Part shown: positions 8,971 through 42,779 of the stretch, one piece after another
How positions within the stretch are numbered: the first letter of the stretch is position 1
How the letters are laid out: every line of letters begins with the position of its first letter
Origin: Planktomarina temperata RCA23
GTDB taxonomy: Bacteria > Pseudomonadota > Alphaproteobacteria > Rhodobacterales > Rhodobacteraceae
Assembly: GCF_000738435.1 (NCBI RefSeq)
Contig: NZ_CP003984.1
Span: 2,170,001 to 2,234,000 of the forward strand
Direction of reading: 5' to 3'
DNA length: 64,000 nucleotides
Made by a program: the position numbers and the translations under genes
Notes under the pieces: model-generated
Told to the model about the DNA's origin: nothing
Seen by the model: only the letters and a program-made list of their open reading frames with translations
The model's database searches: none

Positions 8971-9157
8971 AAGACTTGGCCCGGTGGCAACACCGGGCTG
9001 CGCCTGCCTGCCCCCCGGCAGGCGCATTCACCATCTCAATATACGGGTATGTATGGTTATTGCTCCAGCATTCCGGTGATTTCACCACCGCACACATGCG
9101 CCCGCCCAGGCAGGCGCTGCCCTCATTTCGTGTTGAAATGGCCTATGCAGTGGTCTT
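8971..9157 (+). repeat. Palindromic intergenic element, copy A
   Basis: Begins immediately after the stop codon of the PotD-like gene with AAGACTTGG and ends near GCAGTGGTCTT. It contains hairpin 1 at 8979-8998 (GCCCGGTG/CACCGGGC with loop GCAA), hairpin 2 at 9000-9025 (GCGCCTGCC/GGCAGGCGC), an extra central segment of about 75 bp, and a tail with GAAATGGCC and TATGCAG. It sits between two convergent genes and may also serve as a transcription terminator. Related copies lie at 16333, 37557 and 42659. Confidence 0.75.
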
Positions 9158-9163
9158 TTTCTG

Positions 9164-10246
9164 TTACCGCAACAGCAGCAGCGAAACCGGGCTCCATCCC
9201 ACCCGGGCCGTATCGCCCGCTGCCAGCACCTTGCGGCCCGCGGTGTTGCGCATCGTCACGGTCACCGGCGCATCCTTTTGCGGCAGTGTCACGTCATAAA
9301 AGGTCATATCCCCGTAGTAGAAGACCTCAGACACCACAGCTTCAATTTCACGCTCAGCGGTTTGCCCCTCCGCTAAAATGGTCAACATTTCCGGGCGAAT
9401 GCCAACGGATTGGCAGCCGTCGACCCCTGCGGGGGCTTGAGACAGGGGCAAGGTCAATCTGCCCAAAGATTGCACGTCCACCTCGACCGTCTCACCCGAC
9501 GTAGCGCGCACCTCGGCCTCCAAAAAGTTCATCATGCCGATAAAATTGCCGACCCGCCGCGAGCTGGGCTTACCATAGAGCATCTGCGGCGTGGCCACCT
9601 GGGCGATCTTGCCGTCAAACATGACCGCAATGCGATCGGACATGGTGAGCGCCTCTTCTTGATCATGGGTCACGAGAACAAAGGTGATGCCAACGGCCCG
9701 TTGCAGCCGCCGCAATTCCGACTGCATTTGTTCGCGCATCTTTTTGTCAAGCGCCGAAAGTGGCTCATCGAGGAGCAAAACCCGCGGCTTGAGCACTAAG
9801 GCCCGTGCCAGCGCAACCCTTTGGCGTTGCCCCCCCGACAGCGCATGTGAGGCGCGGCTGTCAAAGCCTTGCAGCCCCACCATGGAAATGGCCTCCGAAA
9901 CCCGCTCTTGTATCTCCGCTTTTGGCAAGCGGCGGGCCTTCAGCCCATAGGCCACATTCTCGGCCACGCTCATATGCGGAAAAATTGCGTAGCTTTGAAA
10001 CACCATATTGGTCGGACGCTTATTGGCCGGCACCCCATCCATGGACTTCCCATCGATATGAAGACTACCCGCCGAGGGGGTCTCAAATCCGGCAATTGAG
10101 CGCAGCAGCGTCGTCTTTCCGCAGCCCGATGGGCCCAGGAGCGAGAAAAATTCCCCGGTGCGAATATCCAAATCTATCTGCGACAGCGCTTGAAAATCAC
10201 CATACAATTTATCAACTCCACTGAGTTGAATAATGGGCTGTGTCAT
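9164..10246 (-). CDS. PotA-like ABC transporter ATP-binding protein
   Basis: ATPase of 360 residues that drives the PotBC-type permease pair. Walker A is GPSGCGKT at residues 38-45, followed by the signature LSGGQRQRVALARAL and Walker B VLLLDEPLSALD. A C-terminal TOBE-like regulatory domain follows (SVGIRPEML onward). Its ATG overlaps the stop of the upstream permease by 4 bp, so it is the last gene of the Rieske-potB-potC-potA operon. Confidence 0.93.
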   Translation of the reverse strand: MTQPIIQLSGVDKLYGDFQALSQIDLDIRTGEFFSLLGPSGCGKTTLLRSIAGFETPSAGSLHIDGKSMDGVPANKRPTNMVFQSYAIFPHMSVAENVAYGLKARRLPKAEIQERVSEAISMVGLQGFDSRASHALSGGQRQRVALARALVLKPRVLLLDEPLSALDKKMREQMQSELRRLQRAVGITFVLVTHDQEEALTMSDRIAVMFDGKIAQVATPQMLYGKPSSRRVGNFIGMMNFLEAEVRATSGETVEVDVQSLGRLTLPLSQAPAGVDGCQSVGIRPEMLTILAEGQTAEREIEAVVSEVFYYGDMTFYDVTLPQKDAPVTVTMRNTAGRKVLAAGDTARVGWSPVSLLLLR

Positions 10247-11058
10247 AGGAATCCCCCTGAATTCTCAATGCCGGTTTTCTTGAGCCCGCGCCGTCGGAAA
10301 TAATCTGCGAGGAGCAGCAGGCTGATCGAAAGCACCAGCAACAATGTACCCAAGGCCATCAAACTGGGCAGTTTTTGTGGGAAGCGCAATTGCCCCCAAA
10401 TATAAACTGGCAGGGTCGGCTCTGTCCCGGCCAAGAAGAAGGCGATAATAAACTCATCAAGAGAGATGGTAAAAGCAATCAACAGGCTCGCCACAATCCC
10501 CGGCATGACCAGGGGGAAAATCACCATCCAAAAGGTGTTCCATCGGGTTTGACCCAAGTCAATCGAGGCCTCTTCAAGGCTTCGATCCAAATTCATAAAG
10601 GCCGACGATAAAATCGCGATGCAAAACGGTGTGCAAATTAAGATATGCCCCAAAATAATCGTAAAGAGCGACAGTTCAAACCCAAGCTGTATGATGACAA
10701 CCAAAAGCGACACGCCGATAATAATCTCGGGCAGCACCATCGGCAGCATGATAAACCCCATGATGGAGCGTCGCGCGGGAAAGGCAAAGCGGGTCGACGC
10801 CCGCGCGGCCAAGACGCCGAAGAGTGTGGAAAATATCGCCGTTGTCACCGCAATCATCAAGCTGTTGCGCACGGCCACATGCAGCGCCTCAGTCGATTGC
10901 AGCACTTCAAACCATTTTGTCGTGAAGCCTTTCAACGGAAAGGACACAATGCTGCTGTCATTGAAGGCGAAGACCGGCAAGAGAATGGCCGGTGCATAGA
11001 GAAACACAAAAAACAGCGCGACATACCATTTGAAAAAATACCCCTTGCCACGCATCAT
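10243..11058 (-). CDS. PotC-like ABC transporter permease
   Basis: Inner-membrane permease of 271 residues with about six hydrophobic segments, the first at residues 10-30. The EAA-type cytoplasmic loop is EEASIDLGQTRWNTFWMVIFPLVMPGI. It overlaps the partner permease and the ATPase gene by 4 bp at each end, which indicates translational coupling. It belongs to the spermidine/putrescine-type class of importers. Confidence 0.92.
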   Translation of the reverse strand: MMRGKGYFFKWYVALFFVFLYAPAILLPVFAFNDSSIVSFPLKGFTTKWFEVLQSTEALHVAVRNSLMIAVTTAIFSTLFGVLAARASTRFAFPARRSIMGFIMLPMVLPEIIIGVSLLVVIIQLGFELSLFTIILGHILICTPFCIAILSSAFMNLDRSLEEASIDLGQTRWNTFWMVIFPLVMPGIVASLLIAFTISLDEFIIAFFLAGTEPTLPVYIWGQLRFPQKLPSLMALGTLLLVLSISLLLLADYFRRRGLKKTGIENSGGFL

Positions 11059-11933
11059 TTGGGCCCTCGCATAAATTTCCTATTCATCCAAACGAACACC
11101 AAGGTCACACATGTCACAATCGCCATGGCAGAAATGGCCAAAGCGGCCCCGAGGGGGGCATTATTGGCCTTTTTGAACTGCAACTCGATCATATTGGAAA
11201 TCATTAACCCATTCGGACCGCCCACCAATCGCGGCGTGACGTAATCGCCGATGGTGGGAATGAAAACAATAATGGTCGCGGCAATGACACCGGGCATCGA
11301 CAGGGGCAATGTCACGCGCAAAAACCGGCGCAGCCGATTGTCACCCAGGTCCTCTGCCGCTTCAATCAAAGAGCGATCGACCCGCTCCAGGGCCACGAAA
11401 ATCGGCAAAATTGCAAAGGGCACCCAAGAATGGGCCAGAGTCAAAACCACGGCGTTTTGATTGTACAATATAAAGCTCAACGGCTGTTCAATCAGCCCAA
11501 GCCCCATGAGGCTGCCATTGACCACGCCGTTATAACCCAAGATCACCTTCCAAAGGAAAATCCGCATCAGATAGCTGGTCCAAAATGGGATGGTGATCAA
11601 AAAGATCCACATGGCCTTGCGTTTGGGCGTGACATGGAAAGAGATGAAATAGGCCACAGGATAGGCCAAAAGCACCGTTAAAGCCGTCACAAAAATTGAG
11701 ATCCTGAGCGAACGGGCCATCAGATATTGATACATTGGCTCGGTCCAAGCCGCCTTGTAATTCTCAAGAGAAAAACTGCGATCTAAAGTCAGATAGCTTT
11801 GCGTCCAAAAGCTGAGCGCCAGCACCATGATCAGGGGGACCGCCAACATCAAAAGCGTAAAAACCAGCGTGGGGCTGATCAAAACCATCCCCTGAGCGCC
11901 TTCACTCCGCAGTCGTTTTCGTAATCCTGTCAC
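11055..11933 (-). CDS. PotB-like ABC transporter permease
   Basis: First permease subunit, 292 residues, about six membrane segments. The EAA loop reads IEAAEDLGDNRLRRFLRVTLPLSMPGV. The start is GTG at 11933, directly after the stop codon of the Rieske oxygenase gene (no spacer). This zero-gap junction ties the importer to the oxygenase in one operon. Confidence 0.92.
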   Translation of the reverse strand: MTGLRKRLRSEGAQGMVLISPTLVFTLLMLAVPLIMVLALSFWTQSYLTLDRSFSLENYKAAWTEPMYQYLMARSLRISIFVTALTVLLAYPVAYFISFHVTPKRKAMWIFLITIPFWTSYLMRIFLWKVILGYNGVVNGSLMGLGLIEQPLSFILYNQNAVVLTLAHSWVPFAILPIFVALERVDRSLIEAAEDLGDNRLRRFLRVTLPLSMPGVIAATIIVFIPTIGDYVTPRLVGGPNGLMISNMIELQFKKANNAPLGAALAISAMAIVTCVTLVFVWMNRKFMRGPK

Positions 11934-13133
11934 CTATGCAGTCCCCTTCCCTAGAAGCGCATCATTGACCTGCGCCATTTGCCCCGGCTCGGGTGGAGCC
12001 GGCTGTCCCATCACCGGCAAAAGCCGACGCAAATGGTCGTGATAGGTTTTCACACCATACTCCAAATCAGAAAATATCACACCGTCATATGCAGAGGATT
12101 TTGTGGCCTCGCAAGACCAAACCATGAGCATCTGATCCTCTTCGGCCGTATCGCGGTCAATCCGTCCACTCAAATAGCGCGCGGCCTTCATTTCGCGGCT
12201 TTCCTCGCGCCGCCGATAGCACATCCCACGCTGCACCGTTTGCGTGGCAGACTGGGGCACTTCTTGATAATAGATGACACTGTCGGGATAGAGGCCGAGG
12301 ACGAAATTAGGGAACATGCCAAAATAGATCCATTGACGCCGCTGGTGCAGCGGAAGGTGATCAGCCTCTGGCAAGATCTCGCGGTATTTTCGCACGCTCC
12401 AGCGGTGGCCATAGGCCTCATTGAATGTCCCGACCGATCGCGAGGTGCCGTTGGCGTATGGCTCGTCAAAATAGCCATCGCCATATAATTGATGCAGCCC
12501 CGGATGGGCTTGGCGCACGTGATAGCCCTCATTGTCCACATCGCGCACAGATTTCCAATTCACCGCCAAAAAATCATCCATTGAATTGCTGTCCGTGGGC
12601 ACCATATTGGCCAAATCATAGGAGGCGATTTCATCATCAAACCGCGCCAGAATTTCTGCCACTGCAGGCTGTGGACCGGCTTGGAATCGAATGAAGACGA
12701 GGCCATTCCAGATTTCCATCTCCAGCGGTTTCAGACCCCATTTCTCGGCTTGCATCGGGGGAAATGTATCTCGATTGGCAATTCCGCGCAGCCCCCCGTC
12801 CAAATTATAGGCCCACCCATGATAGGGGCAGACCATCGCCTTATTGCAGACCCCGCGCGCATCCGGAACAATCCGCGATCCACGATGCCGGCATAGGTTG
12901 TGAAAGCCCCGCAAAATGCCATCATGACCGCGGATCACCAGCGCCCGCTCACCGGCCACATCAAAGGTGACATAGGCGCCAATTTCCGCCGCTTCATTCA
13001 CATGGCAGACAAATTGCCAATGGGTTTTGAACAGGGTCTCACATTCCAGCTCAAACAGTTCCTGCGAAAAATAGGCCCAACCGGGCAAGCCAGAGCGGTC
13101 CCAGTCTTTTGGCAACGCGATATCTGCAGTCAT
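11934..13133 (-). CDS. Rieske [2Fe-2S] ring-hydroxylating/N-demethylating oxygenase, alpha subunit
   Basis: Terminal oxygenase of 399 residues. The Rieske cluster ligands are Cys81-His83 in CRHRG and Cys102-His105 in CPYHGWAY. The mononuclear iron site is in NWKSVRDVDNEGYHVRQAHPG (His205 and His210). Family members oxidise aromatics or demethylate quaternary amines such as glycine betaine, carnitine or proline betaine. Abutting PotB-type transport genes favour an imported amine as substrate (inference). No reductase gene lies in this operon; the only ferredoxin-reductase in the window is PaaE. The ATG at 13133 has GGAG 7 nt upstream; a TTG four codons earlier is less likely. Confidence 0.88.
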   Translation of the reverse strand: MTADIALPKDWDRSGLPGWAYFSQELFELECETLFKTHWQFVCHVNEAAEIGAYVTFDVAGERALVIRGHDGILRGFHNLCRHRGSRIVPDARGVCNKAMVCPYHGWAYNLDGGLRGIANRDTFPPMQAEKWGLKPLEMEIWNGLVFIRFQAGPQPAVAEILARFDDEIASYDLANMVPTDSNSMDDFLAVNWKSVRDVDNEGYHVRQAHPGLHQLYGDGYFDEPYANGTSRSVGTFNEAYGHRWSVRKYREILPEADHLPLHQRRQWIYFGMFPNFVLGLYPDSVIYYQEVPQSATQTVQRGMCYRRREESREMKAARYLSGRIDRDTAEEDQMLMVWSCEATKSSAYDGVIFSDLEYGVKTYHDHLRRLLPVMGQPAPPEPGQMAQVNDALLGKGTA

Positions 13134-13244
13134 GAAAGGCTCCAATCAATATCCCTTGGCATGGAACAGCGGGCGCCCAAAAATATCAACACTAATCTCA
13201 CAAACCACTCGGAATTATGTCGCATTCGCCCGGTCAATTGGGCT

Positions 13245-14561
13245 CTAGGCCCGCAGCCAAAACAGGGTAATGGCCGGGAAGGCCACGAGCAAAATCACCC
13301 GCGCAATGTCAGAGGCCACGAAATACATCACCACCTTATAGGTCTGCGCCAAGGGCGTGCTGCGGTCCATTGCGTTGATGACAAAGAGGTTCATACCCAC
13401 AGGCGGGGTAATCAGCCCCACTTCCACCACGATCAACACCAATATGCCAAACCAGATGGCGATTTGTTCTTGGCTCATGCCGAAATCAAGTTCCACGATG
13501 ACCGGAAAGAAGATCGGAATGGTCAGTAAGATCATAGACAAGCTGTCCATCAAACAGCCAAACACAAGGTAAAACAGCAAAATGATACTCAGCACCACCC
13601 AGGGGCTAAACCCTTGGCTAACCACAAAGTTCGAAATTTCCTGCGGCACTTGGGTCAGGGCCAAAAACCCGTTGTAAAAACCAGCGCCAAGAATGATGAA
13701 GAAGATCATTGCGCTGGATTTTGCGGTGACAAGGAAGCTCTCAATCAGGGTGCTGCGCGTCAATCCTTTATTCATCCACGCAATGAACCCCGTACCGGCC
13801 GCCCCAACCGCCGCCCCTTCCGTGGGGGTGAACCAACCCTGATAGATACCGCCCACCACAAGGGCAAAAACCAGTAGGACCGGCCAGACTTTGAACAAGG
13901 CCGCAAAGCGATCGGCATAGGGCACTGCCGCTTTCACCCCCGCCGCTTCCGGGTGCAGTCGGACATAGATGGAAATGGCAATCACATAGCCAAGCGCCGC
14001 CAAAATCCCCGGAATGAAAGCCGCAAGAAACAGTTTAGCAATATTTTGCTCGGTTAAAATCGCATAGATCACCAAAACAATGGAGGGCGGAATCAAAATC
14101 CCCAGGGTGCCGCCGGCGGCCAAAGTGGCGGTGGAAAAGCCGCCGGAATAGCCATATTTGCGCAATTGGGGCAAAGCAACGCGCCCCATGGTCGCCGCCG
14201 TGGCGAGGGACGAGCCGCAGATCGAGCCAAACCCGGCGCAGGCACCAATGGCCGCCATAGCAATGCCGCCCTTGCGATGGCCCAAAAAGCTCTCAGCCGC
14301 TTTGAACAGGGCGCTGGACATGCCCCCCAGGGTCGCAAAATGCCCCATCAGCAAAAACATTGGCACTATCGACAAAGAATAGCTGGAAAACGTGCTGAAG
14401 GTTTCAGATTTCAACCGGGCCAGCGGCAAATTGAAACTGCCCGTAGTGAAATACAGCCCCACCAAACCCACCAAAAACATCGCAAGACCAATGGGGACCC
14501 GGATGAAAATCAAAATCAGGAGCGCCGGAAAAGAGGCCAAGCCAATCTCTAAGTTGCTCAT
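13245..14561 (-). CDS. TRAP transporter large permease (DctM type)
   Basis: Membrane subunit of a tripartite ATP-independent periplasmic transporter, 438 residues and highly hydrophobic throughout, with the family motifs GGTLGILIPPS and LITPPVGMNLFVI. It forms a sodium-driven uptake system with the DctQ and DctP genes upstream; the DctQ stop overlaps its start by 4 bp. The substrate, probably an organic acid, cannot be inferred from the membrane subunit. Confidence 0.93.
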   Translation of the reverse strand: MSNLEIGLASFPALLILIFIRVPIGLAMFLVGLVGLYFTTGSFNLPLARLKSETFSTFSSYSLSIVPMFLLMGHFATLGGMSSALFKAAESFLGHRKGGIAMAAIGACAGFGSICGSSLATAATMGRVALPQLRKYGYSGGFSTATLAAGGTLGILIPPSIVLVIYAILTEQNIAKLFLAAFIPGILAALGYVIAISIYVRLHPEAAGVKAAVPYADRFAALFKVWPVLLVFALVVGGIYQGWFTPTEGAAVGAAGTGFIAWMNKGLTRSTLIESFLVTAKSSAMIFFIILGAGFYNGFLALTQVPQEISNFVVSQGFSPWVVLSIILLFYLVFGCLMDSLSMILLTIPIFFPVIVELDFGMSQEQIAIWFGILVLIVVEVGLITPPVGMNLFVINAMDRSTPLAQTYKVVMYFVASDIARVILLVAFPAITLFWLRA

Positions 14562-15139
14562 AGGTCCAGTCCTGGTTCTTGGGACAAAATATCTTCACCA
14601 CGCAGGCATTCCACCGCGCGAATACCCGCCACATAAAAAGCAATCACCGCTGTGAGAACGGCTCCGGACAGGCTGGCGGCATAGGCCCACCAAATCGGAA
14701 ATTGCAGCAAAAAGGTGGTGTCGCCATAGCTCTGTTTGGACAGCATACCATTGTAAAGCTGATAGGCGATTGAGATCAGCACAATGGCAAAAATCACATC
14801 AATGCCAAGCTGCAACACCCGGTTGATCCGCATTGGCAGTTTTGCCGTAAAAATATCCACAGATGCGTGGCCTGCGGAAATTTGGCACAATGGCAGAAAC
14901 GCGAAAATGGCAAAGGCCACGCCTGCCTCCACCAGTTCAAAATCGCCATTGATCGGCCCGACGCCCAAATCCAAAGCCCAAGCTGAAAGGCCGGGCATGA
15001 CCGATCCGATCCAGCCGTGCAACAGCCCGTTCAAACTGCGCCCAACTACAGAAATGCAAATCAAAACAATAAGAAGAGTTAAGACCAAACCACCGCAGAT
15101 CGCCATCAAGCGCGCTGCTTGCGTCGCCAAATTCCTCAT
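14558..15139 (-). CDS. TRAP transporter small permease (DctQ type)
   Basis: Four-helix small membrane subunit of 193 residues, with hydrophobic segments beginning near residues 15, 60, 100 and 150. It sits between dctP and dctM in the usual order. Its length is at the upper end for DctQ proteins. Confidence 0.9.
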   Translation of the reverse strand: MRNLATQAARLMAICGGLVLTLLIVLICISVVGRSLNGLLHGWIGSVMPGLSAWALDLGVGPINGDFELVEAGVAFAIFAFLPLCQISAGHASVDIFTAKLPMRINRVLQLGIDVIFAIVLISIAYQLYNGMLSKQSYGDTTFLLQFPIWWAYAASLSGAVLTAVIAFYVAGIRAVECLRGEDILSQEPGLDL

Positions 15140-15166
15140 GTGAATGCCCCGTCTTGCAAATAGAAA

Positions 15167-15196
15167 AACGCTGCGCGAAACGGCCCGCGCAGCGTT
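15167..15196 (-). terminator. Hairpin between TRAP dctP and dctQ
   Basis: AACGCTGCGCG/CGCGCAGCGTT, an 11-bp perfect stem with 8-nt loop, followed on the minus strand by TTTTTC. It lies 18 nt after the dctP stop. It would allow partial termination so that the binding protein is made in excess of the membrane subunits. Confidence 0.7.
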
Positions 15197-15213
15197 GCAT
15201 GTGCTTTAGCGAC

Positions 15214-16242
15214 TTAATTTGCGTTCATCAATGCCGTTGCTTGATCAATCATGGCTTGCCCATCGAGACCACGGCCCTTCATCTCTTCGATCCATGCCCC
15301 ATAGACCGGCTGGGCCGCTTCTGCCCAGACGGCAGATTGCGCCACGTCCAAAGTGACAATACTGTTGCCACGGTTCACGGCAACATCACGGCCAGGCGTG
15401 TCATAGGCTTGCTGCGTCGTGCCGGCAAAGATGGAAAACTCAAGACCTGAGTTATCTTCGATCACCGCTTGCAGATCCGCAGGCAGGGCCGCGAATTTAT
15501 CCTTGTTCATCACCAATACGAAAGTGACCGTGTAGAGCATGGGGCCGGTGAATTCCGTGTGATGTTCGACAAGCTCTGGCACTTTCAGCGCCTTTGTCAC
15601 CTCCCAAGGGATGGTCGTGCCATCAATCACACCTTTGGACAATGCCTCTGGCACTGCTGGCACTGGCATGCCCACAGGGGTGGCGCCCAACTCTTTGAGC
15701 ATTGCATTCACCTGGCGCGACGCGCCGCGGATCTTCATGCCGTTGAAATCCGATGGGACAGTCACAGCCTTATTGGCATGAATAACGCCAGGGCCGTGCA
15801 CCCAGCCGCCCAGCACCTTAAGATTGCCAAACTCGCGCTCGGCAATATCTGCCTCCAACATTTTCCAGAATGCCGCAGAGGCCGGGCCTGCGTCATTCAC
15901 CAAGAAGGGCAGCTCAAAAACTTCGGTTGATGGATAACGGCCCGGCGTATAGCCCACCACATTCCAGGTCATATCAATCACGCCATCGAGCACCTGGTCG
16001 ATCAACTCAGGCGGCTTGCCACCCAATTGCATGGCCGCATAGCGGTTAATTTCGATGCGACCGCCAGAGGCTTGCTCAACATTATCAGCCCAAACATCGA
16101 TAATTTTCGACGGAATCGTCGCCTGCGCGGGCAAAAAGCTTTGCAAGTTGAAGCTATAGTCTGCAGCGCCAGCCATAGTGGACATTGCAAGAGCTGCAAC
16201 GGCACCGCCCAAGGTTCTGTGAATGATCGTATGAAAAGTCAT
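15214..16242 (-). CDS. TRAP transporter substrate-binding protein (DctP type)
   Basis: Periplasmic binding protein of 342 residues with a signal peptide cleaved around AGAADYS (residues 25-28). Typical DctP features are QLGGKPPELIDQVLDGVIDMTWNVVGYTPGRYP and the conserved Arg in MKIRGASRQVN, which usually binds a ligand carboxylate. It is the first gene of the leftward TRAP operon and is divergent from the PhyH-family gene. Confidence 0.92.
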   Translation of the reverse strand: MTFHTIIHRTLGGAVAALAMSTMAGAADYSFNLQSFLPAQATIPSKIIDVWADNVEQASGGRIEINRYAAMQLGGKPPELIDQVLDGVIDMTWNVVGYTPGRYPSTEVFELPFLVNDAGPASAAFWKMLEADIAEREFGNLKVLGGWVHGPGVIHANKAVTVPSDFNGMKIRGASRQVNAMLKELGATPVGMPVPAVPEALSKGVIDGTTIPWEVTKALKVPELVEHHTEFTGPMLYTVTFVLVMNKDKFAALPADLQAVIEDNSGLEFSIFAGTTQQAYDTPGRDVAVNRGNSIVTLDVAQSAVWAEAAQPVYGAWIEEMKGRGLDGQAMIDQATALMNAN

Positions 16243-16300
16243 GATATATCCCTGCCAATGATGAGTGGCACCACTGTAAGATAAACGGCCAACCGATCAA

Positions 16301-16332
16301 CAAAAAAGTCTTATAACAAAAAAGTCTTATAA
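16301..16332. repeat. Perfect 16-bp tandem repeat upstream of dctP
   Basis: CAAAAAAGTCTTATAA occurs twice back to back (16301-16316 and 16317-16332), 58 bp upstream of the dctP start. Each unit carries GTCTTATAAC-like half symmetry, which suits a GntR-type operator pair, but no regulator gene is next to it. Confidence 0.6.
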
Positions 16333-16445
16333 AAGATCTCTACATACCCGAGCCGCCAAGCCAAAACACTTTGCCCGGTGGCAACACCGGGCTGCGCGTG
16401 CCTGCCCAGGCCTTTCGTGTTGAAATGGCGTTATGCAGAGGCCCT
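16333..16445 (+). repeat. Palindromic intergenic element, copy B
   Basis: Short copy of about 113 bp. The left end is AAGATCTCTACATA, hairpin 1 is CCCGGTG-GCAA-CACCGGG around 16374-16391, and the right end is TTTCGTGTTGAAATGGCG followed by TTATGCAGAGG. It lies in the divergent dctP/phyH spacer (16243-16549), which otherwise holds only the tandem repeat and the upstream region of the PhyH gene. Confidence 0.75.
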
Positions 16446-16549
16446 CATTCTTAACGTTTTGGCAAAAAGCGGGGCGCGCACTGCAAACTCAGAATTGAAA
16501 TTGTCACCAGCCTGTGGCAGCACAATAGAAACCAACAAGGATCTCACAC

Positions 16550-17362: not shown

Positions 17363-17381
17363 GGCGCGGCGCACCCAAGTG

Positions 17382-34426: not shown

Positions 34427-34711
34427 TTAGGGCTTGGGCGCCGCCTTGGATTTCGGAGCCTTTTTCGCAGCGGCCGCTTCTAGCGCCTCAAGCCGCGCGC
34501 TCAAGTCTTCATTTTGCGCCCGCGCTTTTTGCGCCATGGCCCGCACCGCGTCGAACTCTTCACGGGTGACAAAATTGCGATCCGCCAGCCAGCGGTCCAT
34601 GAAGCTTTTCATGGCATTCTCGGCCTCGTCCTTGGCGCCTTGCGCGACACCCATCGCATTGGTCATGATTTGGCTCATATCATCCATGAACTTATTCTTG
34701 CTTTGCATCAT
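34427..34711 (-). CDS. ubiK: Ubiquinone biosynthesis accessory factor UbiK family (BMFP domain)
   Basis: Small coiled-coil protein of 94 residues. The amphipathic N-terminus and the block VTREEFDAVRAMAQKARAQNEDLSARLEALEA match the BMFP/YqiC family. An Ala-Lys-Pro-rich tail (KKAPKSKAAPKP) ends it. It is divergent from lgt. Confidence 0.88.
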   Translation of the reverse strand: MMQSKNKFMDDMSQIMTNAMGVAQGAKDEAENAMKSFMDRWLADRNFVTREEFDAVRAMAQKARAQNEDLSARLEALEAAAAKKAPKSKAAPKP

Positions 34712-34810
34712 CTGTCTCCTTGGCGGCGATAAGTCGCTTTGGTCTTATATGGGGGCTAATATCGCGGAACTCAAGGTTGACTTACAGCGCCGCTCTGGGA
34801 ATGAAGGGTT

Positions 34811-35740
34811 ATGATCGCTTCGATTCCCTTTCCTGATGTCTCGCCCACCCTCTTTTCGGTGGACATACCGCTCTGGCAGTTTTCACTGGCTGGCATGGAT
34901 TTTAGCTTGGGTGGGTTTGAACTCGCCCTGCGCTGGTATGCTCTGGCCTATATCGCGGGTATTTTGCTTGCCTCTTGGATCATGCGCCGCGCCCTGCGCC
35001 GGCCTGCGCTCTGGCCGCAAGATCGGCCAGCTTTCAGCGAAGCAAACCTGGATGATCTCATCACCTGGTTAATCTTTGGCATCATCATCGGGGGGCGATT
35101 GGGCTATGTGCTGTTCTACAACCCCAGCTATTACCTCGCCAACCCCGCGGCAGCCCTCCGAATTTTTGACGGGGGCATGTCCTTTCATGGCGGTTTTCTG
35201 GGCGTTGTCGCGGCCGGATTGCTGTTTTGCCGCAAGCATAAGATCGCACTGCTAAAAGCCTCGGATGTGATGGCGGCCTCTGCTCCGGCGGGCCTGCTCT
35301 TTGGCCGGCTGGCCAATTTCATCAATGCCGAGCTCTGGGGCAGAGAGACCACCCTGCCTTGGGGGGTGATCTTTCCGGGCGAGGACGCTCAAACATGTGT
35401 TCAGGCGGCCGCCGGCCTTTGTGCGCGCCACCCCTCGCAGCTCTATGAGGCCTTGGGTGAAGGGCTTATCCTGGGCGCGCTTTTGCTTTATCTTCTGTTT
35501 CGCACAGGGGCATTGCGCCGCAGCGGTCTGTTAACCGGGATCTTTTTGATCGGATATGGTCTTACGCGGTTCATGGTCGAATGGGTGCGCCAACCAGATG
35601 CGCAGTTTCAAACCTTGGACAACCCGATTGGCTACGCCTTGCAACTGGGTCCGACCGGTCTGACCATGGGACAAATTCTAACCCTGCCGATGCTTCTGGC
35701 TGGGCTATGGTTGATCCAAAAGGCACGCGCCCGGCCATGA
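34811..35740 (+). CDS. lgt: Phosphatidylglycerol-prolipoprotein diacylglyceryl transferase
   Basis: Integral membrane enzyme of 309 residues that adds diacylglycerol to the lipobox Cys of prolipoproteins. The key motifs are GGMSFHGGFLGV and GRLANFINAELWGRETTLPWGVIFP with the conserved catalytic-region Arg and Glu. About seven hydrophobic segments are visible. It is first of lgt-midA-pgeF, with 4-bp overlaps. Confidence 0.96.
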   Translation: MIASIPFPDVSPTLFSVDIPLWQFSLAGMDFSLGGFELALRWYALAYIAGILLASWIMRRALRRPALWPQDRPAFSEANLDDLITWLIFGIIIGGRLGYVLFYNPSYYLANPAAALRIFDGGMSFHGGFLGVVAAGLLFCRKHKIALLKASDVMAASAPAGLLFGRLANFINAELWGRETTLPWGVIFPGEDAQTCVQAAAGLCARHPSQLYEALGEGLILGALLLYLLFRTGALRRSGLLTGIFLIGYGLTRFMVEWVRQPDAQFQTLDNPIGYALQLGPTGLTMGQILTLPMLLAGLWLIQKARARP

Positions 35741-36798
35741 ACGCCTTGGCCGAGACATTGCGCCAACGCATTGGGCAGCACGGCCCATTGACCCTTGCCG
35801 ATTATATGGGGGAGTGCCTGCTCCACCCCAAGCACGGCTATTACACGCAGCAAGAGGCCTTCGGCCGCAGCGGCGATTTCATCACCGCTCCCGAAATAAG
35901 CCAAATGTTCGGGGAAATGATCGGCCTCTGTCTTGGTGCCACATGGCAAGCGCAGGGCGCACCCAGGGATGCTATTGTGGTGGAGTTGGGGCCCGGACGA
36001 GGCACATTGATGCAAGACCTGCGCCGCATTGCGCCGGCTGTACCGGGCTTTGACAGCTTGCCAATCCATATGATCGAAGCCTCGCCAAGATTGCGCCGGC
36101 TCCAATCCGATGCGCTGCCCGGTGTAATCCATCACGCCGAGGCAAGCGGACTGCCACAAGCGCCCCTCTTTCTCATTGCCAATGAGTTTTTTGACGCCCT
36201 GCCCATCCGGCAATTTCGCCGCCACTCGGCGGGCTGGGAAGAGATATTGGTGGGATGCGGCGCCAATGGCCTGTGCTTTGGCAAGGCCGCGCCGCAACCC
36301 TATCATTTTCTCGACCATCGGCTTGAGGATACCGAACCCGGCATGATCGTTGAATATTGCCCCGCGCTCCCGCCCATTGTGGCCGAGCTGTCCCAGCGTA
36401 TCGCCGATCACGGCGGTGCGGCGCTGATCGTTGACTATGGCGATTGGCGCTCTCAAGGCGATACAGTGCAGGCCGTGGGCCATCATCAACCCGCCGATCC
36501 CCTAGCCGCGCCCGGGACCGCAGATCTCACAGCCCATCTGGACTTTGAGGCCCTGTATAACGCGGCCAAGGCCGCAGGGCTGCGCCCGACCCGTTTGACC
36601 ACGCAGGGGGTATTTTTGGAGCGATTGGGACTGACCCAGCGCGCGCAAACCCTGGCCAAATCCCTAAGCGGAGCGGCGCTTGACTCCCACATTGCCGCGC
36701 ATCGCCGCCTCACCCACCCTGACGAGATGGGCGGGCTATTCAAGGTCATGGGCTTTGTGGCAGAGAGCGCGGCTGTACCGCCGGGGCTTGAACCATGA
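35737..36798 (+). CDS. SAM-dependent methyltransferase, MidA/NDUFAF7 family
   Basis: DUF185 protein of 353 residues. Family blocks are GDFITAPEISQMFGEMIGLC, VELGPGRGTLMQDLLR-like VELGPGRGTLMQDLRR, and IANEFFDALPIRQF. The mitochondrial homologue methylates an arginine of a complex I subunit; a similar role is plausible here but unproved. ATG overlaps the lgt stop by 4 bp. Confidence 0.9.
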   Translation: MNALAETLRQRIGQHGPLTLADYMGECLLHPKHGYYTQQEAFGRSGDFITAPEISQMFGEMIGLCLGATWQAQGAPRDAIVVELGPGRGTLMQDLRRIAPAVPGFDSLPIHMIEASPRLRRLQSDALPGVIHHAEASGLPQAPLFLIANEFFDALPIRQFRRHSAGWEEILVGCGANGLCFGKAAPQPYHFLDHRLEDTEPGMIVEYCPALPPIVAELSQRIADHGGAALIVDYGDWRSQGDTVQAVGHHQPADPLAAPGTADLTAHLDFEALYNAAKAAGLRPTRLTTQGVFLERLGLTQRAQTLAKSLSGAALDSHIAAHRRLTHPDEMGGLFKVMGFVAESAAVPPGLEP

Positions 36799-37550
36799 CG
36801 CTCACCCCCCTCACGTCTGACCTTCTGTCGGAGGTGTCACATGGGTTTTTCACCCGGATGGGCGGCAGCTCAACGGGTATTTATCATGGGTTGAATTGCG
36901 GCAAAGGCTCGGGTGACAGGCCTGACGCGGTCCAGAGCAATCGCGCAGCGGTTGCGGATTTTTTTGGACGGCCAGCCGATCGCTTGCAATCGGTGCATCA
37001 AACTCATTCAGCGCAGGTGCAGATCCTAACCGCTCCGCTCACCGCTGCGCCCAAAGCCGATGCCATGGTGACCGCGACTGCGGGCGTGATCTTGGGGGTT
37101 CTTACGGCCGATTGCCAGCCTGTGTTGTTTCATGACGCGAAAGCCCGCGTCATTGGCGCCGCCCATGCGGGCTATAAGGGCGCCAAATTGGGGATTTTGC
37201 AAAATACCCTCGCGGCTATGGAGACCTTGGGCGCCCAGCGACAAGATATTTGCGCGGTCATCGGACCCTGCATCAGTCAAAGGGCCTATGAGGTTGGACC
37301 GGAATTTCTTGAAGAGATCTGCCACGACGCCCCAGACGCCCTGCGCTTTTTCGCTCAGGGCAGGGGCGATCGTTATCAGTTCGATCTGCCAAGCTACAGT
37401 TTGGACCAGCTGCGCGCAGCCGGGATCAAGGAGGCGGCATGGACGGGCCATTGCACCTATAGCGCGCCGGATCAGTTTTACTCTTATCGCCGCTCGGTGC
37501 ACGAGCACCAGCCCGACTATGGCCGGCTGATCTCTTGTATTTGCCTGTAA
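36795..37550 (+). CDS. pgeF: Peptidoglycan editing factor (YfiH/laccase-domain family)
   Basis: 251-residue protein with the zinc/copper-site signature: His in QSVHQTHSAQV, Cys in VLTADCQPVLFHD, and His in GAAHAGYKGAKLGI. PgeF prevents wrong amino-acid incorporation into peptidoglycan precursors; older names are polyphenol oxidase or purine nucleoside phosphorylase. ATG overlaps the methyltransferase stop. Confidence 0.92.
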   Translation: MTLTPLTSDLLSEVSHGFFTRMGGSSTGIYHGLNCGKGSGDRPDAVQSNRAAVADFFGRPADRLQSVHQTHSAQVQILTAPLTAAPKADAMVTATAGVILGVLTADCQPVLFHDAKARVIGAAHAGYKGAKLGILQNTLAAMETLGAQRQDICAVIGPCISQRAYEVGPEFLEEICHDAPDALRFFAQGRGDRYQFDLPSYSLDQLRAAGIKEAAWTGHCTYSAPDQFYSYRRSVHEHQPDYGRLISCICL

Positions 37551-37556
37551 CGTCCT

Positions 37557-37646
37557 AAGACCTCTGCATAACGCCATTACACCACAAAATGAGGGCAGCA
37601 ACTGCCGGGGCGCAGGCAGGCGCTGCCCGGTGTTGCCACCGGGCAA
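37557..37646 (-). repeat. Palindromic intergenic element, copy C
   Basis: Begins 6 bp after the pgeF stop with AAGACCTCTGCATAACGCC, contains GGGCAGC and GGCGCAGGCAGGCGCTG stem segments, and ends with hairpin 1 at 37625-37644 (GCCCGGTG-TTGC-CACCGGGC). It is in opposite orientation to copies A and B. It separates housekeeping pgeF from the accessory TIR gene. Confidence 0.75.
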
Positions 37647-37768
37647 TGCACGGCAGTTTTGAGTCCAAATTTTTGGTGCTGCGGACTTCTCCATTGGCAA
37701 CCGGGGCATTTGGCAAGAAATATTCCACACACCTCCGATTTCTCAATCTTAATGCTGTCAAAATCAGT

Positions 37769-38770
37769 TTACATTAAACCGTCGCTGTCGTTAACGCTGC
37801 TATCCTCATCATCGCTGATCTGCCCAGAAATAATACGATCAACGAACCGATCCACGAAAAATGACAACTCAATAATCATCATCCGTGAATACTTGCTGTC
37901 GTCAAAAAGCATTCCTGCATAGCGACTTCGGGTCATCGACCTAAGTGTACGTCTCAAATCCTCAGCAACCCTGCTTGCTTGTTTCGGGGGTGCATTTTTT
38001 AGTTCTCTATGTGCTTCTACAAGAATTTCTGAAATCCAAGGCATTGTTTCTCTACAAAGCCCTGCGGCAATGAGTAGCCCATAGCTGCCGGTTCGTTCTT
38101 CTGCGGTCATCATTAACATTTTATCCATAAACCTTGGGTGAATGCTCCGTACTCGTGATCCCGACGCGCGCAGTTGTCCTTCGGCCCAGTCAGGGTCGAA
38201 GGCGGACATTCTGGTGGCTAATCCGCGTACTTGAGAAACCAAATCTTCCATGACTTCGGTTTGCGGGCGCACATGATTTTTTGATTCTGTTTTTGCTGGA
38301 ATTGCATCAATTTTTTCTTGAAGTTTCGGCCAAAGTGCTGGTACGAGTTGTTGAATATGTGCATCATCGGTCTTCTTGTCGTCGGAAGCTGCATTGATGG
38401 CATTGAGCGTTTCCAGCATTCCCTGCTCATTGACCTTCGACGCTTGAAACTGCTGCAAAGGACCGCTTAGATCACTTAATTCGAGGCCAAATAGTAAGGG
38501 AATGGCCTTTCCGACCTGCATGGATTTGGAAAGAGCGCCCGCTTCAAACATTATCCATTCCGACGAAATGTTTTCTGGAGTGATGCATAGGATTCCGAAA
38601 TCTGAACTTTCAAGCTCCCCTGCGATTGCTTTCGCCCAACGATCCCCAGCTGAAATGTCCTTGTCCGAAACAAACGGTTTTGCGTGTTGTACGATTAGAG
38701 GAATCCACTCCTTTAATGCATTGGCCATAGCCTTACTTCGTGTACCGCTCCAAGAAATAAATACTTTCAT
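37769..38770 (-). CDS. Stand-alone TIR-domain protein
   Basis: 333 residues. The N-terminal TIR domain (about 1-110) starts MKVFISWSGTRSKAMANAL and carries SSEWIMFEAGALSK, where Glu76 is at the place of the catalytic Glu of NAD-cleaving TIR domains. The C-terminal 200 residues look helical and were not recognised. No ThsA, SAVED, Argonaute or STING-like partner is adjacent, so this is not an obvious Thoeris or CBASS operon. Base composition is AT-richer than the neighbours, and repeat elements flank it, which suggests acquisition. ATG at 38770 has GGAG 8 nt upstream. Confidence 0.82.
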   Translation of the reverse strand: MKVFISWSGTRSKAMANALKEWIPLIVQHAKPFVSDKDISAGDRWAKAIAGELESSDFGILCITPENISSEWIMFEAGALSKSMQVGKAIPLLFGLELSDLSGPLQQFQASKVNEQGMLETLNAINAASDDKKTDDAHIQQLVPALWPKLQEKIDAIPAKTESKNHVRPQTEVMEDLVSQVRGLATRMSAFDPDWAEGQLRASGSRVRSIHPRFMDKMLMMTAEERTGSYGLLIAAGLCRETMPWISEILVEAHRELKNAPPKQASRVAEDLRRTLRSMTRSRYAGMLFDDSKYSRMMIIELSFFVDRFVDRIISGQISDDEDSSVNDSDGLM

Positions 38771-38842
38771 CAAATTTTCTCCAAATTTTTTTTAACAATT
38801 ATCGTACACAACTCATTAGCGAAGTGAAACCTGCAAAGAGCT

Positions 38843-38896
38843 ATGAAGGTTTTCGTCGCTGGCGCGTCGAGGACAGCTTTGTCCCGCGTTGTATGA
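38843..38896 (+). pseudogene. Possible remnant of a Rossmann-type N-terminus
   Basis: A 17-codon frame reading MKVFVAGASRTALSRVV resembles the beginning of NAD(P)-dependent epimerases, then stops. It lies in the spacer between the TIR gene and lrp. It could equally be part of a conserved intergenic repeat; confidence is low. Confidence 0.2.
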
Positions 38897-38932
38897 ATTA
38901 ATCAGCGGTGCCACAAAGCCTTGCTCCGCGCC

Positions 38933-38951
38933 CGCCCTGCCACATAGGGCG
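38933..38951. repeat. Short intergenic hairpin between TIR gene and lrp
   Basis: CGCCCT/AGGGCG stem with loop GCCACAT, in a GC-rich stretch 37 bp past the lrp stop. It may terminate lrp or belong to another dispersed palindrome family. Confidence 0.4.
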
Positions 38952-38987
38952 ACCGGTTGGTTTTGGTTCGGAGGTGGGGTGCTGTGC

Positions 38988-39482
38988 TTAGGGTTGTTTT
39001 GACAAGCGCTCTTCGAGCACCTCGAAGGGCACGCCGGGTTGATCTTTTGCGCCGCGGATGACCAGCGATGTTTTAACGGAGGCGACATTCTCCGCTGAGG
39101 TCAGCTCTTCGGTCAAAAAGGATTGGAATGTCGACAGATCGGGCGCGACGCATTTCAAGATGAAATCCACCTCGCCGTTGAGCATATGGCACTCACGCAC
39201 GAGCGGCCAGCGCAGGCAGCGCATCTCAAAGGCGGATAGATCCGCCTCTGCCTGGCTTTGCAGCCCGACCATGGCGAAGACCTGAACTTCAAAGCCCAAT
39301 TTGCGCGCATCAATATCCGCATGATAGCCGCCGATATAGCCGGTTTCCTCCAAAGTGCGCACGCGGCGCAGGCAGGGAGGCGCGGAAATTCCGACCCTTT
39401 TGGCCAGCTCAACATTTGTCATCCGCCCATCGGCTTGCAACTCTGCCAAAATCAAACGATCAATGTCATCCAGACGGTGCAT
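38988..39482 (-). CDS. Lrp/AsnC-family transcriptional regulator
   Basis: Feast/famine regulator of 164 residues. The N-terminal HTH is LDDIDRLILAELQADGRMTNVELAKRVGISAPPCLRRVRTLEETG; the C-terminal RAM ligand domain includes FAMVGLQSQAEADLSAFE and VEFILKCVAPDL-like VDFILKCVAPDL. It is divergent from trxB, an arrangement often seen in this group. Confidence 0.92.
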   Translation of the reverse strand: MHRLDDIDRLILAELQADGRMTNVELAKRVGISAPPCLRRVRTLEETGYIGGYHADIDARKLGFEVQVFAMVGLQSQAEADLSAFEMRCLRWPLVRECHMLNGEVDFILKCVAPDLSTFQSFLTEELTSAENVASVKTSLVIRGAKDQPGVPFEVLEERLSKQP

Positions 39483-39534
39483 AAACGGGTACCCTTTCGC
39501 AGTGTTGGGAAATCATACCCAAATGACGCACCCA

Positions 39535-39566
39535 GCGCAATAATATTTCAACACTGCGCAATAATA
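39535..39566. promoter_or_regulatory. Phased direct repeat in the lrp/trxB spacer
   Basis: GCGCAATAATA occurs at 39535-39545 and 39556-39566, starts exactly 21 bp apart, i.e. two helical turns. Such phasing is expected of an Lrp/AsnC octamer binding one face of DNA. It lies between the divergent lrp and trxB starts. Confidence 0.5.
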
Positions 39567-39667
39567 ATTCGTATAGCGACCTGTAGTCGCAAAGGTCCCG
39601 GTTTGGGCTTTTGCCCGGCGGCTGGCCTGTATATATGCAGCAGCAACACTTACCTGTAGGAAATCGC

Positions 39668-40609
39668 ATGTCCAATACACGCCACACGAAAGTCTTGATC
39701 ATCGGCTCCGGTCCTGCCGGCTACACGGCCGGGGTTTATGCCAGCAGAGCCATGCTCAATCCGATATTGGTTCAGGGCATCGAGCCCGGCGGGCAACTGA
39801 CCACAACCACCGAAGTGGAGAACTGGCCCGGGGACAGCGAAGTGCAGGGCCCCGACTTGATGATCCGTATGCAAGACCACGCCAAGGCCATGGGCACGGA
39901 AATCATCGGCGATATCATCACCGATCTGGACGTCTCGGAACGCCCCTTCAAAGCTCAAGGCGATAGCGGCACGCTTTACACCTGTGATGCGGTGATTTTG
40001 GCAACCGGCGCACGGGCAAAATGGCTTGGCATTGACAGTGAGGAAAAATTCAAAGGATTTGGCGTTTCGGCCTGTGCGACATGCGACGGTTTTTTCTATC
40101 GCGGTCAAGAAATCGTTGTGGTCGGCGGCGGCAATACCGCGGTTGAAGAGGCGCTGTTTCTGACCAATTTCGCCTCAAAAGTCACATTAATTCACCGACG
40201 CGACGAGCTGCGCGCCGAGAGGATCTTGATCGACCGGCTGATGAAGAATGAAAAAATCGTGCCGATGTGGTTCCATGAGATTGACGAAGTCTATGGTACA
40301 GATATGCCTTTAGGTGTTGAAGGCGTGAAGGTGAAACACACTAAAACCGGTGAAATCACGGATGTGCCTTGCAAAGGCGTCTTTGTTGCCATCGGCCATG
40401 CGCCCGCCAATGAGCTGGTCAAAGACGTGCTGGAAACCCATATGGGCGGGTATGTGGTGACCAAACCCGACAGCACCGAAACCTCAATTCCCGGTGTGTT
40501 TGCCGCCGGTGATCTGACCGATCACAAATACCGCCAAGCCGTCACCAGTGCCGGAATGGGCTGTATGGCAGCTCTGGAAGCCGAGCGGTTTTTGGCCGGT
40601 CAGGACTAA
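39668..40609 (+). CDS. trxB: Thioredoxin-disulfide reductase
   Basis: FAD/NADPH enzyme of 313 residues that reduces thioredoxin. The FAD motif is [18 protein letters not shown], the redox pair is Cys136-Cys139 in ACATCDGFF, and the NADPH motif is [18 protein letters not shown] at 39668 with AGGA upstream is chosen over a 19-residue extension. Confidence 0.96.
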
Positions 40610-40929
40610 CGCTTTGGCTTTGGGCGATGCCTGTGTTGCTCAAAGTCAAAACCACTCCAGCCCCCGGCCCGGCCGCCAAAAGCGCCATGTAATCGATGCG
40701 GGCGTAATTGGTTGCCCTGTCGATGAATTCAACTTAAAAGTACAATCTAATTTATTAATACCATATTCGTTTAACCCTCTGGTCAACTGGCTCTGAAATA
40801 AAATAACATTCCATCAACCCGGCGCAGGCGGCGCAAGTCTCTCTGCTAAATCTCTCAACTCCGCAAGCGGTTTTGTCACCTACAACTGGCGAGGCTTCTG
40901 CGCAAAGCGACCTTCTCGAGATACATATT
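40610..40929. other. 320-bp leader upstream of sat/cysC
   Basis: No gene is visible. The first third contains GATGCCTGTGTTGC and CCAGCCCCCGG, words shared with element copy D, so a decayed copy may be present. The middle is AT-rich (around 40733-40808) and may hold the promoter. No known riboswitch was recognised. Confidence 0.4.
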
Positions 40930-42633
40930 ATGCAAAACAATTTAACACCGATCCCCGAATTATACGTCAGCTATGACAGCGCGCAGAAAATGAAGCTCGA
41001 GGCGGCAGAGCTCACCTCCTGGGATCTCACGCCGCGGCAGGTCTGCGATTTGGAATTGCTGATGAACGGCGGGTTCAATCCCTTGAAGGGATTCTTGGGA
41101 CAGGCTGATTATGACAGCGTGGTGGCCCATATGCGTTTGAGTGACGGGGCGCTTTGGCCCATGCCAATCACTTTGGATGTGAGTGAGGCATTTGCCAGCA
41201 GCCTTGAGTTGGGCCAAGATATCGCTTTGCGTGACCCAGAGGGCGTCATTCTCGCGACCATGACCGTAACAGACCGCTGGACACCCGACAAAGACCGCGA
41301 AGCCGAACAGGTTTTTGGCACCAATGACATGGCCCATCCGGCTGTCAATTATCTGCACAATACCGCAGGGGCGGTCTATCTCGGTGGACCCGTGACGGGC
41401 ATTCAACAGCCAGTTCATTACGACTTTCGCGGCCGGCGCGATACCCCCAATGAGCTGCGCGCCTATTTTCGGAAAATGGGTTGGCGCCGCGTGGTGGCGT
41501 TTCAAACCCGCAACCCGCTGCATCGGGCTCACCAAGAGTTAACCTTCCGCGCCGCCAAGGAGGCCCAGGCCAATCTGCTCATTCACCCGGTGGTGGGCAT
41601 GACCAAACCCGGCGACATCGATCACTTCACCCGCGTGCGCTGCTATGAGGCGGTCCTTGATCAATACCCATCCTCGACCACGGCGATGTCGCTGCTCAAT
41701 TTGGCAATGCGCATGGGCGGGCCGCGCGAGGCGGTATGGCACGGGCTTATTCGCGCCAACCATGGCTGCACCCATTTCATCGTCGGCCGCGACCATGCCG
41801 GACCGGGGAAAAATTCAGCAGGAGAAGATTTCTACGGCCCCTATGAGGCGCAAGACCTGTTTCGCAAATATGAGGCGGAAATTGGCCTGGAGATGGTGGA
41901 TTTCAAACATATGGTATACGTGCAGGACCGCGCCCAATATGAGCCCGCCGATGAAGTTGAAGACGGCTGCACGGTGCTAAATATCTCCGGCACAGAGCTG
42001 CGCCGGCGCCTGTCGGAGGGCTTGGACATTCCCGAATGGTTCAGCTTCCCCCAGGTGGTGGCCGAATTGCGTAAATCACGACCACCGCGGGCGCAACAGG
42101 GATTTACCGTCTTTTTCACCGGGTTTTCTGGATCAGGAAAATCAACAATTGCAAATGCTTTGATGGTAAAGCTCATAGAGATGGGCGGTCGGCCGGTGAC
42201 CTTGCTGGACGGGGATATTGTGCGCAAGAATCTATCCTCGGAACTGGGATTTTCCAAAGAACACCGCGACCTGAACATTCGCCGGATCGGCTATGTGGCC
42301 TCGGAAATCACCAAAAATGGCGGCATCGCCATCTGCGCCCCCATCGCCCCCTATGCCACCACACGGCAGGCCGTGCGCGAAGATGTGGAGGCTTTTGGAG
42401 CCTTTGTGGAGGTGCATGTCGCCACCTCCATCGAAGAATGCGAACGGCGTGACCGCAAAGGCCTGTACAAATTGGCCCGCGCTGGAAAAATCAAGGAATT
42501 CACAGGTATTTCAGATCCCTATGATGTGCCCAACGCACCGGAATTGCGGCTCGAAACTGAGAGTGTCGAGGTCGACAATTGCGCCCATCAGGTCTTGCTC
42601 AAACTGGAGAGCATGGGTCTCATCGGCGCATAG
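40930..42633 (+). CDS. Bifunctional sulfate adenylyltransferase / adenylylsulfate kinase
   Basis: 567-residue fusion that activates sulfate to APS and then PAPS. The N-terminal ATP sulfurylase (about 1-385) has QTRNPLHRAHQEL and GRDHAGPGKN. The C-terminal CysC-like APS kinase has a P-loop GFSGSGKST at residues 398-406 and LDGDIVRKNLSSELGFSKEHRDLN. This replaces the CysDNC system. ATG at 40930 is chosen; the earlier in-frame start adds 19 residues outside the fold. Confidence 0.94.
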   Translation: MQNNLTPIPELYVSYDSAQKMKLEAAELTSWDLTPRQVCDLELLMNGGFNPLKGFLGQADYDSVVAHMRLSDGALWPMPITLDVSEAFASSLELGQDIALRDPEGVILATMTVTDRWTPDKDREAEQVFGTNDMAHPAVNYLHNTAGAVYLGGPVTGIQQPVHYDFRGRRDTPNELRAYFRKMGWRRVVAFQTRNPLHRAHQELTFRAAKEAQANLLIHPVVGMTKPGDIDHFTRVRCYEAVLDQYPSSTTAMSLLNLAMRMGGPREAVWHGLIRANHGCTHFIVGRDHAGPGKNSAGEDFYGPYEAQDLFRKYEAEIGLEMVDFKHMVYVQDRAQYEPADEVEDGCTVLNISGTELRRRLSEGLDIPEWFSFPQVVAELRKSRPPRAQQGFTVFFTGFSGSGKSTIANALMVKLIEMGGRPVTLLDGDIVRKNLSSELGFSKEHRDLNIRRIGYVASEITKNGGIAICAPIAPYATTRQAVREDVEAFGAFVEVHVATSIEECERRDRKGLYKLARAGKIKEFTGISDPYDVPNAPELRLETESVEVDNCAHQVLLKLESMGLIGA

Positions 42634-42658
42634 GGCGCAGCGGAGACAAGGACAGCTA

Positions 42659-42779
42659 GGCGCAAAATGCTCAAAATCGCAGTGAAATTTTGCGCCTGCC
42701 GGGGGCTGGCAGGCGCATCCCTGTGTTGCCACCGGGTAAAGTCATTTAGCTTGGCGGTTGGATTATCCAGAGGTCTTAA
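42659..42779 (-). repeat. Palindromic intergenic element, copy D
   Basis: From left to right it holds GGCGCAAAAT/ATTTTGCGCC (42659-42668, 42687-42696), GCGCCTGCC/GGCAGGCGC (42692-42700, 42708-42716), an imperfect form of hairpin 1 around 42719-42736, then GCTTGGCGG and TTATCCAGAGGTCTTAA at the end. It sits between the convergent sat/cysC and DUF1150 genes. Confidence 0.75.

Follow-up and report, generated by a model that had tools for sequence, protein, structure and literature searches.

MITEPye1 of Paracoccus yeei is a short miniature inverted-repeat transposable element (MITE) that lacks a transposase gene, carries terminal inverted repeats (TIRs) like those of an insertion sequence (IS), is bordered by target duplications, lies between genes and can fold. 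In all of these respects, as far as the available part of its description goes (PMC11578231), it resembles a family of hairpin-bearing repeats in Planktomarina temperata RCA23, four copies of which lie in the window analyzed here, a 64,000-nucleotide stretch of that genome (positions 2,170,001 to 2,234,000). The same partial source gives MITEPye1 a length of 159 bp, 18-bp IS1182-like ends, 4-bp duplications and one to three copies per chromosome, whereas the Planktomarina family, compared with it by description only, has 53 copies, 5-bp duplications and a core found across genera.

Repetitive extragenic palindromic (REP) sequences offer two further comparisons. In the accessible part of the literature on REPINs (REP doublets forming hairpins) and REP-associated tyrosine transposases (RAYTs), REPINs consist of two inverted hairpin units with a set spacer length, show compensatory changes and are extragenic (PMC3116915); the present family shares these traits and differs in its IS-type ends, its 5-bp duplications and the absence of a RAYT match in five high-copy genomes. 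CGTC-tagged REPs, as described in the available portion of PMC3733652, are palindromic, frequent in alpha-Proteobacteria, mostly arranged as inverted dimers and have no known dedicated transposase. They are defined by a terminal CGTC, by A-T pairs at the start of their 8- to 9-bp stems and, in most, by a CCA tail, whereas hairpin 2 of the present family is a 26-mer that starts with G-C and C-G, which places it outside that class. Members of the IS5 family, such as the IS of Marinomonas algicola encoding WP_191603771.1, have ends (GAGACCTCAGCATAA) that agree with those of the MITE at 13 of 15 positions; they differ in possessing a transposase gene, and by eye the likeness to the MITE stops after about 16 bases. 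No published description of the hairpin MITE family was found in the literature, although one could exist in a subscription journal, a supplement or an ISfinder entry.

Taken as a whole, the observations are very probably best explained by a MITE family that an IS5-type element mobilizes in trans and whose structured core is kept by selection. On the best reading, what is new is that the core of these MITEs is a structured module common to many genera and also to repeats without MITE ends.

Structure and copy number of the family

A full copy consists, in order, of the end AAGACCTCTGCATAAC, about 25 nt, hairpin 1, one base, hairpin 2, a spacer of about 72 nt, hairpin 3, the tail TGCCC, about 30 nt and the inverted end. 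The TIRs measure 15–16 bp. Hairpin 1 is GCCCGGTG GCAA CACCGGGC (strands A and Aʹ), hairpin 2 is GCGCCTGCC TGCCCCCC GGCAGGCGC (strands B and Bʹ, GCGCCTGCCTGCCCCCCGGCAGGCGC) and hairpin 3 is about GCGCCCGCC CA GGCAGGCGC. The plan of the core is A-Aʹ-B-Bʹ-spacer-B-Bʹ-A, and pairing is possible between the tail and the 3ʹ strand of hairpin 1. Compared with shuffled sequence, one full copy has a much stronger fold (z −6.86). Two-ended copies are short and contain no transposase gene.

The RCA23 genome (G000) is a single contig of 3,288,122 bases. Across it, the 18-mer CCCGGTGGCAACACCGGG occurs at 46 places with at most two mismatches and the MITE end AAGACCTCTGCATAACCC at 84 places with at most three; the reversed control gave one place in each search, and most ends are paired. 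Together these places group into 63 clusters. Ten of the 16 single-end clusters, four of which resemble end fragments, were excluded after reading, leaving 53 copies by the author's count. Two-ended clusters span 88–221 bp, most of them 107–129 or 207–221 bases and a single one 88. A 220-nt consensus-like query matched 10 of the 20 genomes of the genus, with 59 matches in RCA23, 48 in strain IMCC1909 (G013), a sister genome assigned to P. temperata in the available part of PMC10675870, 25 in G005 and 17 in G019. Six more genomes had one or two matches each, mostly weak, and ten had none; matches outnumber copies in places because they are pieces of copies. The family can serve to mark strains and is a candidate for inclusion in catalogues of repeats and RNAs.

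The four copies in the window are direct or inverted repeats of one another (window coordinates):

8969–9157, plus strand: copy 1, long form; left end truncated, right end at 9142–9157 with three mismatches; core match at genome position 2178980
8979–8998, plus strand: copy 1, hairpin 1, GCCCGGTG GCAA CACCGGGC
9000–9025, plus strand: copy 1, hairpin 2, the 26-mer common to several genera
9098–9122, plus strand: copy 1, hairpin 3 and tail TGCCC
16333–16445, plus strand: copy 2, short form; both ends present; site without the element in G013
16373–16392, plus strand: copy 2, hairpin 1
37557–37646, minus strand: copy 3; a single end kept, at 37557–37572
37625–37644, minus strand: copy 3, hairpin 1
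42690–42777, minus strand: copy 4; a single end kept, at 42762–42777
42692–42716, minus strand: copy 4, hairpin 2
42719–42736, minus strand: copy 4, hairpin 1, one mismatch to the 18-mer

An earlier, sequence-only reading of the window had recognized these four copies, and all are present and mutually repeated; its placing of three of them between convergent genes and of two within 6 bp of a stop codon agrees with the gene calls made here. It had begun copy 4 at 42659, a start for which no support was found. Of the inverted outer ends that it described, both are kept in 16333–16445 only, the other copies being truncated or one-ended, and the second stem that it assigned to most copies survives intact in just two, copies 1 and 4. 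Its reading would have failed if these four copies were the only ones, or if copies were syntenic in all relatives and lacked matching termini; there are far more, and not all are syntenic. Because the window sits in a copy-rich stretch, its four copies in 64 kb exceed the genome-wide average, about one per 62 kb. The fold of copy 1 has a z of −3.67, with 1 of 200 shuffles equally good. In G013, by eye, a terminator-like hairpin and T-run replace copy 1 (window 8971–9160) past the same stop codon, and an apparent remnant of the right end lies further on.

Evidence of movement

Of 48 two-ended elements, 13 have identical 5-mers directly outside their ends, where mispaired flanks would give 0.3. 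These elements come from seven genomes, with two loci (L044 and L082) included with alternative pairings, and among the 88 offset-length combinations scanned, only the 5-mer and its central 3-mer stand out. Independently, in other genera, a 5-bp duplication borders 6 of 35 two-ended copies of the long-spacer type described below (0.09 expected).

Movement is also evident from a comparison of the two P. temperata strains. Within 400 kb of G013, 55 RCA23 intervals were tried; 15 gave sites that allowed a judgment, and the others lay elsewhere or aligned poorly. At nine of the 15, both strains have an element, as seen in alignments at two and judged by gap length together with G013 matches at seven; three lack it in G013 and three, including those of window copies 1 and 4, are readable neither way. 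At the clean empty site, RCA23 has TACTT-element-TACTT (1999106–1999212) where G013 has a single TACTT. Window copy 2 is missing from G013, where the flank has diverged. Conversely, RCA23 lacks two of the eight two-ended G013 copies in the compared stretch; one of these is flanked by TAATA on both sides, and the RCA23 sequence at that site also differs nearby.

Copies at the same site can be unequal in length, measuring 219 versus 121 bases at 1895924 and 122 versus 220 at 1915415, and the site of one-ended window copy 3 holds a two-ended 218-bp copy in G013. The length differences at common sites indicate that long forms shrink by internal deletion. In G013 (C1, near 1,441.9–1,443.4 kb), about 1.5 kb of unrelated DNA stands where RCA23 has a truncated copy (site 2072920).

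Genomic position

Intergenic copies lie between convergent genes more often than background gaps do (24 of 49 versus 14 of 79; Fisher p 0.0003), where genes were called by a simple codon score and the background gaps, drawn from the window and two further stretches, include those that hold elements. Two of the 53 copies fall in weak reading frames and two are unclassified. The convergent excess would be expected if harmful insertions are weeded out, and also if the elements have a role at 3ʹ ends.

Such an excess, along with covarying hairpins and the many sites common to both strains, would also be expected if the repeats were regulatory or terminator elements of the host, inherited vertically and acting at gene ends, with their terminal repeats incidental. 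This account is improbable given the empty sites, the lineage-specific copies and the target duplications. Ordinary terminators were rejected as a general explanation since most inspected copies have no T-run 3ʹ of the hairpins; a terminator scan gave one weak match, on the minus strand of copy 1. Nor did Rfam return a match at its curated threshold in the window or in 10 other loci (including L263 and L276); searching at E up to 1 gave sub-threshold matches only.

A structured core across Rhodobacteraceae

The exact 26-mer of hairpin 2 occurs in at least 119 stretches; among the matches listed, most belong to Rhodobacterales, and the genera include Shimia, Leisingera, Roseovarius, Natronohydrobacter, Alkalilacustris, Seohaeicola and others. 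With up to three mismatches, it is present in 27 of 295 genomes of the family Rhodobacteraceae (reversed control, one place). Among 130 cores with usable tails, the spacer is 3–7 nt in 31 and 67–77 nt in 98, of which 91 have 71–73 nt. Both MITE ends accompany 16 of 19 Planktomarina cores and 35 of 81 long-spacer copies outside Planktomarina, compared with 19 of 2560 random places, and they accompany none of 32 short-spacer copies. A 7- to 9-mer is common to both flanks in 11 of 31 short-spacer copies, where about 4.6 are expected. At one core copy (L157:1526–1702, minus strand), a near-duplication of about 22 nt that spans a gene start flanks the core by eye, which looks like duplication of the start during insertion.

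A short-spacer core also opens a multi-copy element of about 190 nt that continues with two more hairpins, lacks MITE ends and is found in three genomes:

L263:1471–1690 (plus strand), L290, L308–L311, L313, L320, L321, L262, L276 and L327, in genomes G265, G292 and G053: loci of the ~190-nt element

In an alignment of 12 of its 14 copies (L286, which has no hairpin 3, and L312, which has diverged, were excluded), the predicted structure shows two-sided compensation at 22 of 53 pairs versus 10.1 in shuffles and pairing in 94.9% of cells versus 83.9%, statistics that favor the structure because it was fitted to its own rows. Rfam matches to the L263 copy are sub-threshold only.

Covariation within the core was assessed in 54 long-spacer cores, hand-picked from 100 to limit near-copies, against shuffles that ignore relatedness. 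Hairpins 1 and 2 together show 27 two-sided compensations versus 6.2 in shuffles, all within hairpin 1, and 95.1% of cells paired versus 91.2%. A long-range stem likewise shows 23 compensations versus 9.2 and 15 pair types versus 10.3. The local and long-range folds use the same strands and therefore cannot coexist. The strongest signal comes from the pair flanking hairpin 2, which is complementary in 52 of 54 cores (A-T in 28, T-A in 22 and C-G in 2), whereas shuffles average 24.6 and reach 36 at most among 2000; in short-spacer cores with letters on both sides, it is complementary in 27 of 27. Since the cores were retrieved through hairpin 2, the constancy of that hairpin is no evidence, whereas the search did not select for hairpin 1, for the tail or for the flanking pair. 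The recurrence of the core hairpins across Rhodobacteraceae genera with compensating changes suggests that the folded shape is kept.

The distribution of the core raises the question of what moves. The hairpin core might itself be mobile by another route, with IS5-like ends added later in some lineages. Consistent with this, none of the 32 short-spacer copies is two-ended, nor are 46 of the 81 long-spacer copies outside Planktomarina; multi-copy short-spacer families occur within single genomes, and the core is present in the ~190-nt element. Against it, in Planktomarina, where movement is documented, 16 of 19 cores are two-ended, and this alternative appears rather unlikely. A broader proposal, tentative though somewhat more plausible, is that the core is an independent structured module across Rhodobacteraceae with no fewer than two kinds of carrier repeat, the IS5-ended MITEs and the ~190-nt element; it would amount to a REPIN-like class that works without a RAYT and whose two competing folds serve mobility or the stability of host transcripts. 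A covarying core common to many genera makes it testable whether short mobile repeats keep structure to move, to be tolerated within 3ʹ untranslated RNA or to serve the host.

The candidate transposase

An IS5-type transposase acting in trans is the most likely mobilizer of the MITEs, a best guess that rests on identical or near-identical ends carried by IS5-type elements. In RCA23, all matches to PF05598 and PF01609 fall in one decayed IS (L112:685–1930; G000:C1, about 776.6–777.9 kb), whose transposase is broken over several frames and whose ends, GAGACCTCAGTATAA and GAGACCTCAGCATAA, equal those of the MITE at 12 and 13 of 15 bases. Both domains score above cut-off (PF05598, DUF772, 68.1 bits; PF01609, DDE_Tnp_1, 49.6 bits), and the best NCBIfam match of the two largest pieces is IS5_4, below its whole-protein cut-off. 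The Marinomonas algicola IS, which is on a plasmid, has GAGACCTCAGCATAA at both ends, and its protein is 82.5% identical to L112 over 120 residues. The likeness to a gammaproteobacterial plasmid IS suggests transfer between classes.

Two other genera contain IS remnants whose ends are identical to the MITE end for 15 bases. G175 has 60 ends with at most one mismatch and 42 PF05598 matches; in G082, the IS end lies at three contig ends. The extended IS end was found in 3 of 394 genomes of the family, namely G000, G082 and G175. A plasmid or phage vehicle was considered and dropped. The plasmid search for a vehicle gave one partial match. In the search for an intact partner IS, none was found on plasmids for the G175-type fragment, and the IS end of G082, whose genus is represented by one genome, gave one partial match of 47 bases. 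Among viral contigs, three contain the exact 26-mer and none the exact 18-mer end. The Planktomarina (RCA) lineage is abundant, and in the available part of PMC10675870 its genomes are described as free of plasmids and, save for one incomplete example, of prophages; yet the RCA23 genome holds some fifty short transposons whose intact partner was not found.

A transposase of another kind would be at work if the repeats were REPIN- or bacterial interspersed mosaic element (BIME)-like and mobilized by a RAYT as a single-stranded hairpin. The inverted pair of hairpins at near-fixed spacing (71–73 nt in 91 of 130 cores) fits this account, as do compensatory changes and intergenic positions, both features of REPINs in the accessible part of PMC3116915. 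PF01797, the domain searched for RAYTs, has one match right at the cut-off in G265, which is rich in short-spacer copies, and one in G232. However, PF01797 matches occur in only 3 of 25 genomes, these two, which carry other core copies, and G072 (12 matches). None occurs in G000, G013, G019, G005 or G213, the five high-copy genomes with TIR-bearing copies, for which the REP/RAYT account is thus unsupported. IS-type ends and 5-bp duplications are, moreover, features of DDE transposons. Mobilization by a RAYT is therefore highly improbable.

Of the possibilities raised by the sequence-only reading, the MITE gains support from the paired inverted ends, the 5-bp duplications and the ends shared with IS5-type IS, and the comparison of occupied and empty sites between strains that it proposed yielded a precise empty site with target duplications. 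Its option of a REP/BIME with a RAYT found no backing among the five high-copy genomes. The structured-element option holds for the core, which covaries across genera and also occurs without MITE ends, whereas for the family itself the MITE stands. Of a transposase with matching ends, the search gave IS remnants with identical ends in G175 and G082 and the decayed IS of RCA23 with near-identical ones, but no intact element.

As MITEs, the members of the family are short non-autonomous DNA transposons with 15- to 16-bp TIRs that duplicate 5 bp at insertion, and an IS5-type transposase recognizing the same ends would most likely move them in trans. Their ends, duplications, empty site, length changes and covariation were observed directly, whereas the transposase and what the fold does are inferred. 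Short forms would arise by internal deletion between repeated strands of the core, as orthologous copies of different length suggest. Copies persist chiefly between genes, above all convergent ones, where they do little harm, and selection would keep the fold of the core, most plausibly because it has to form in transcripts that read through gene ends or in single-stranded DNA.

Several results weigh against this explanation. No intact partner IS with AAGACCTCTGCATAA ends was found in RCA23 among the PF05598, PF01609, PF13586 and PF01797 families searched, and the ends of its decayed IS differ from the MITE end at two and three of 15 bases. G013 and G019 have no PF05598, PF01609 or PF13586 match, although copies have moved since RCA23 and G013 diverged. 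In G213, where 94 ends were counted, PF05598 finds nothing and PF01609 a single match without paired ends; the ends of G175 IS copies gave no clear duplications by eye. The nine of 15 judged sites occupied in both strains imply that many copies are old. In hairpins 1 and 2, two of five covariation measures do not exceed shuffles (pairs with change, 4 versus 2.9; pair types, 10 versus 9.0), and the RNAalifold covariation term for the same alignment is just −0.06.

Two further observations concern elements with related ends. In G175, the inspected IS copies (e.g., L116, L117, L120, L123, L126 and L137) are frame-broken, apparently through mass decay of one IS5-type element. In G072, two copies of about 100 bp (L088:1501–1600 and L100:1501–1600) have the same ends as the MITE around an unrelated interior, one of them with a TGAAA duplication, and represent a second MITE type.

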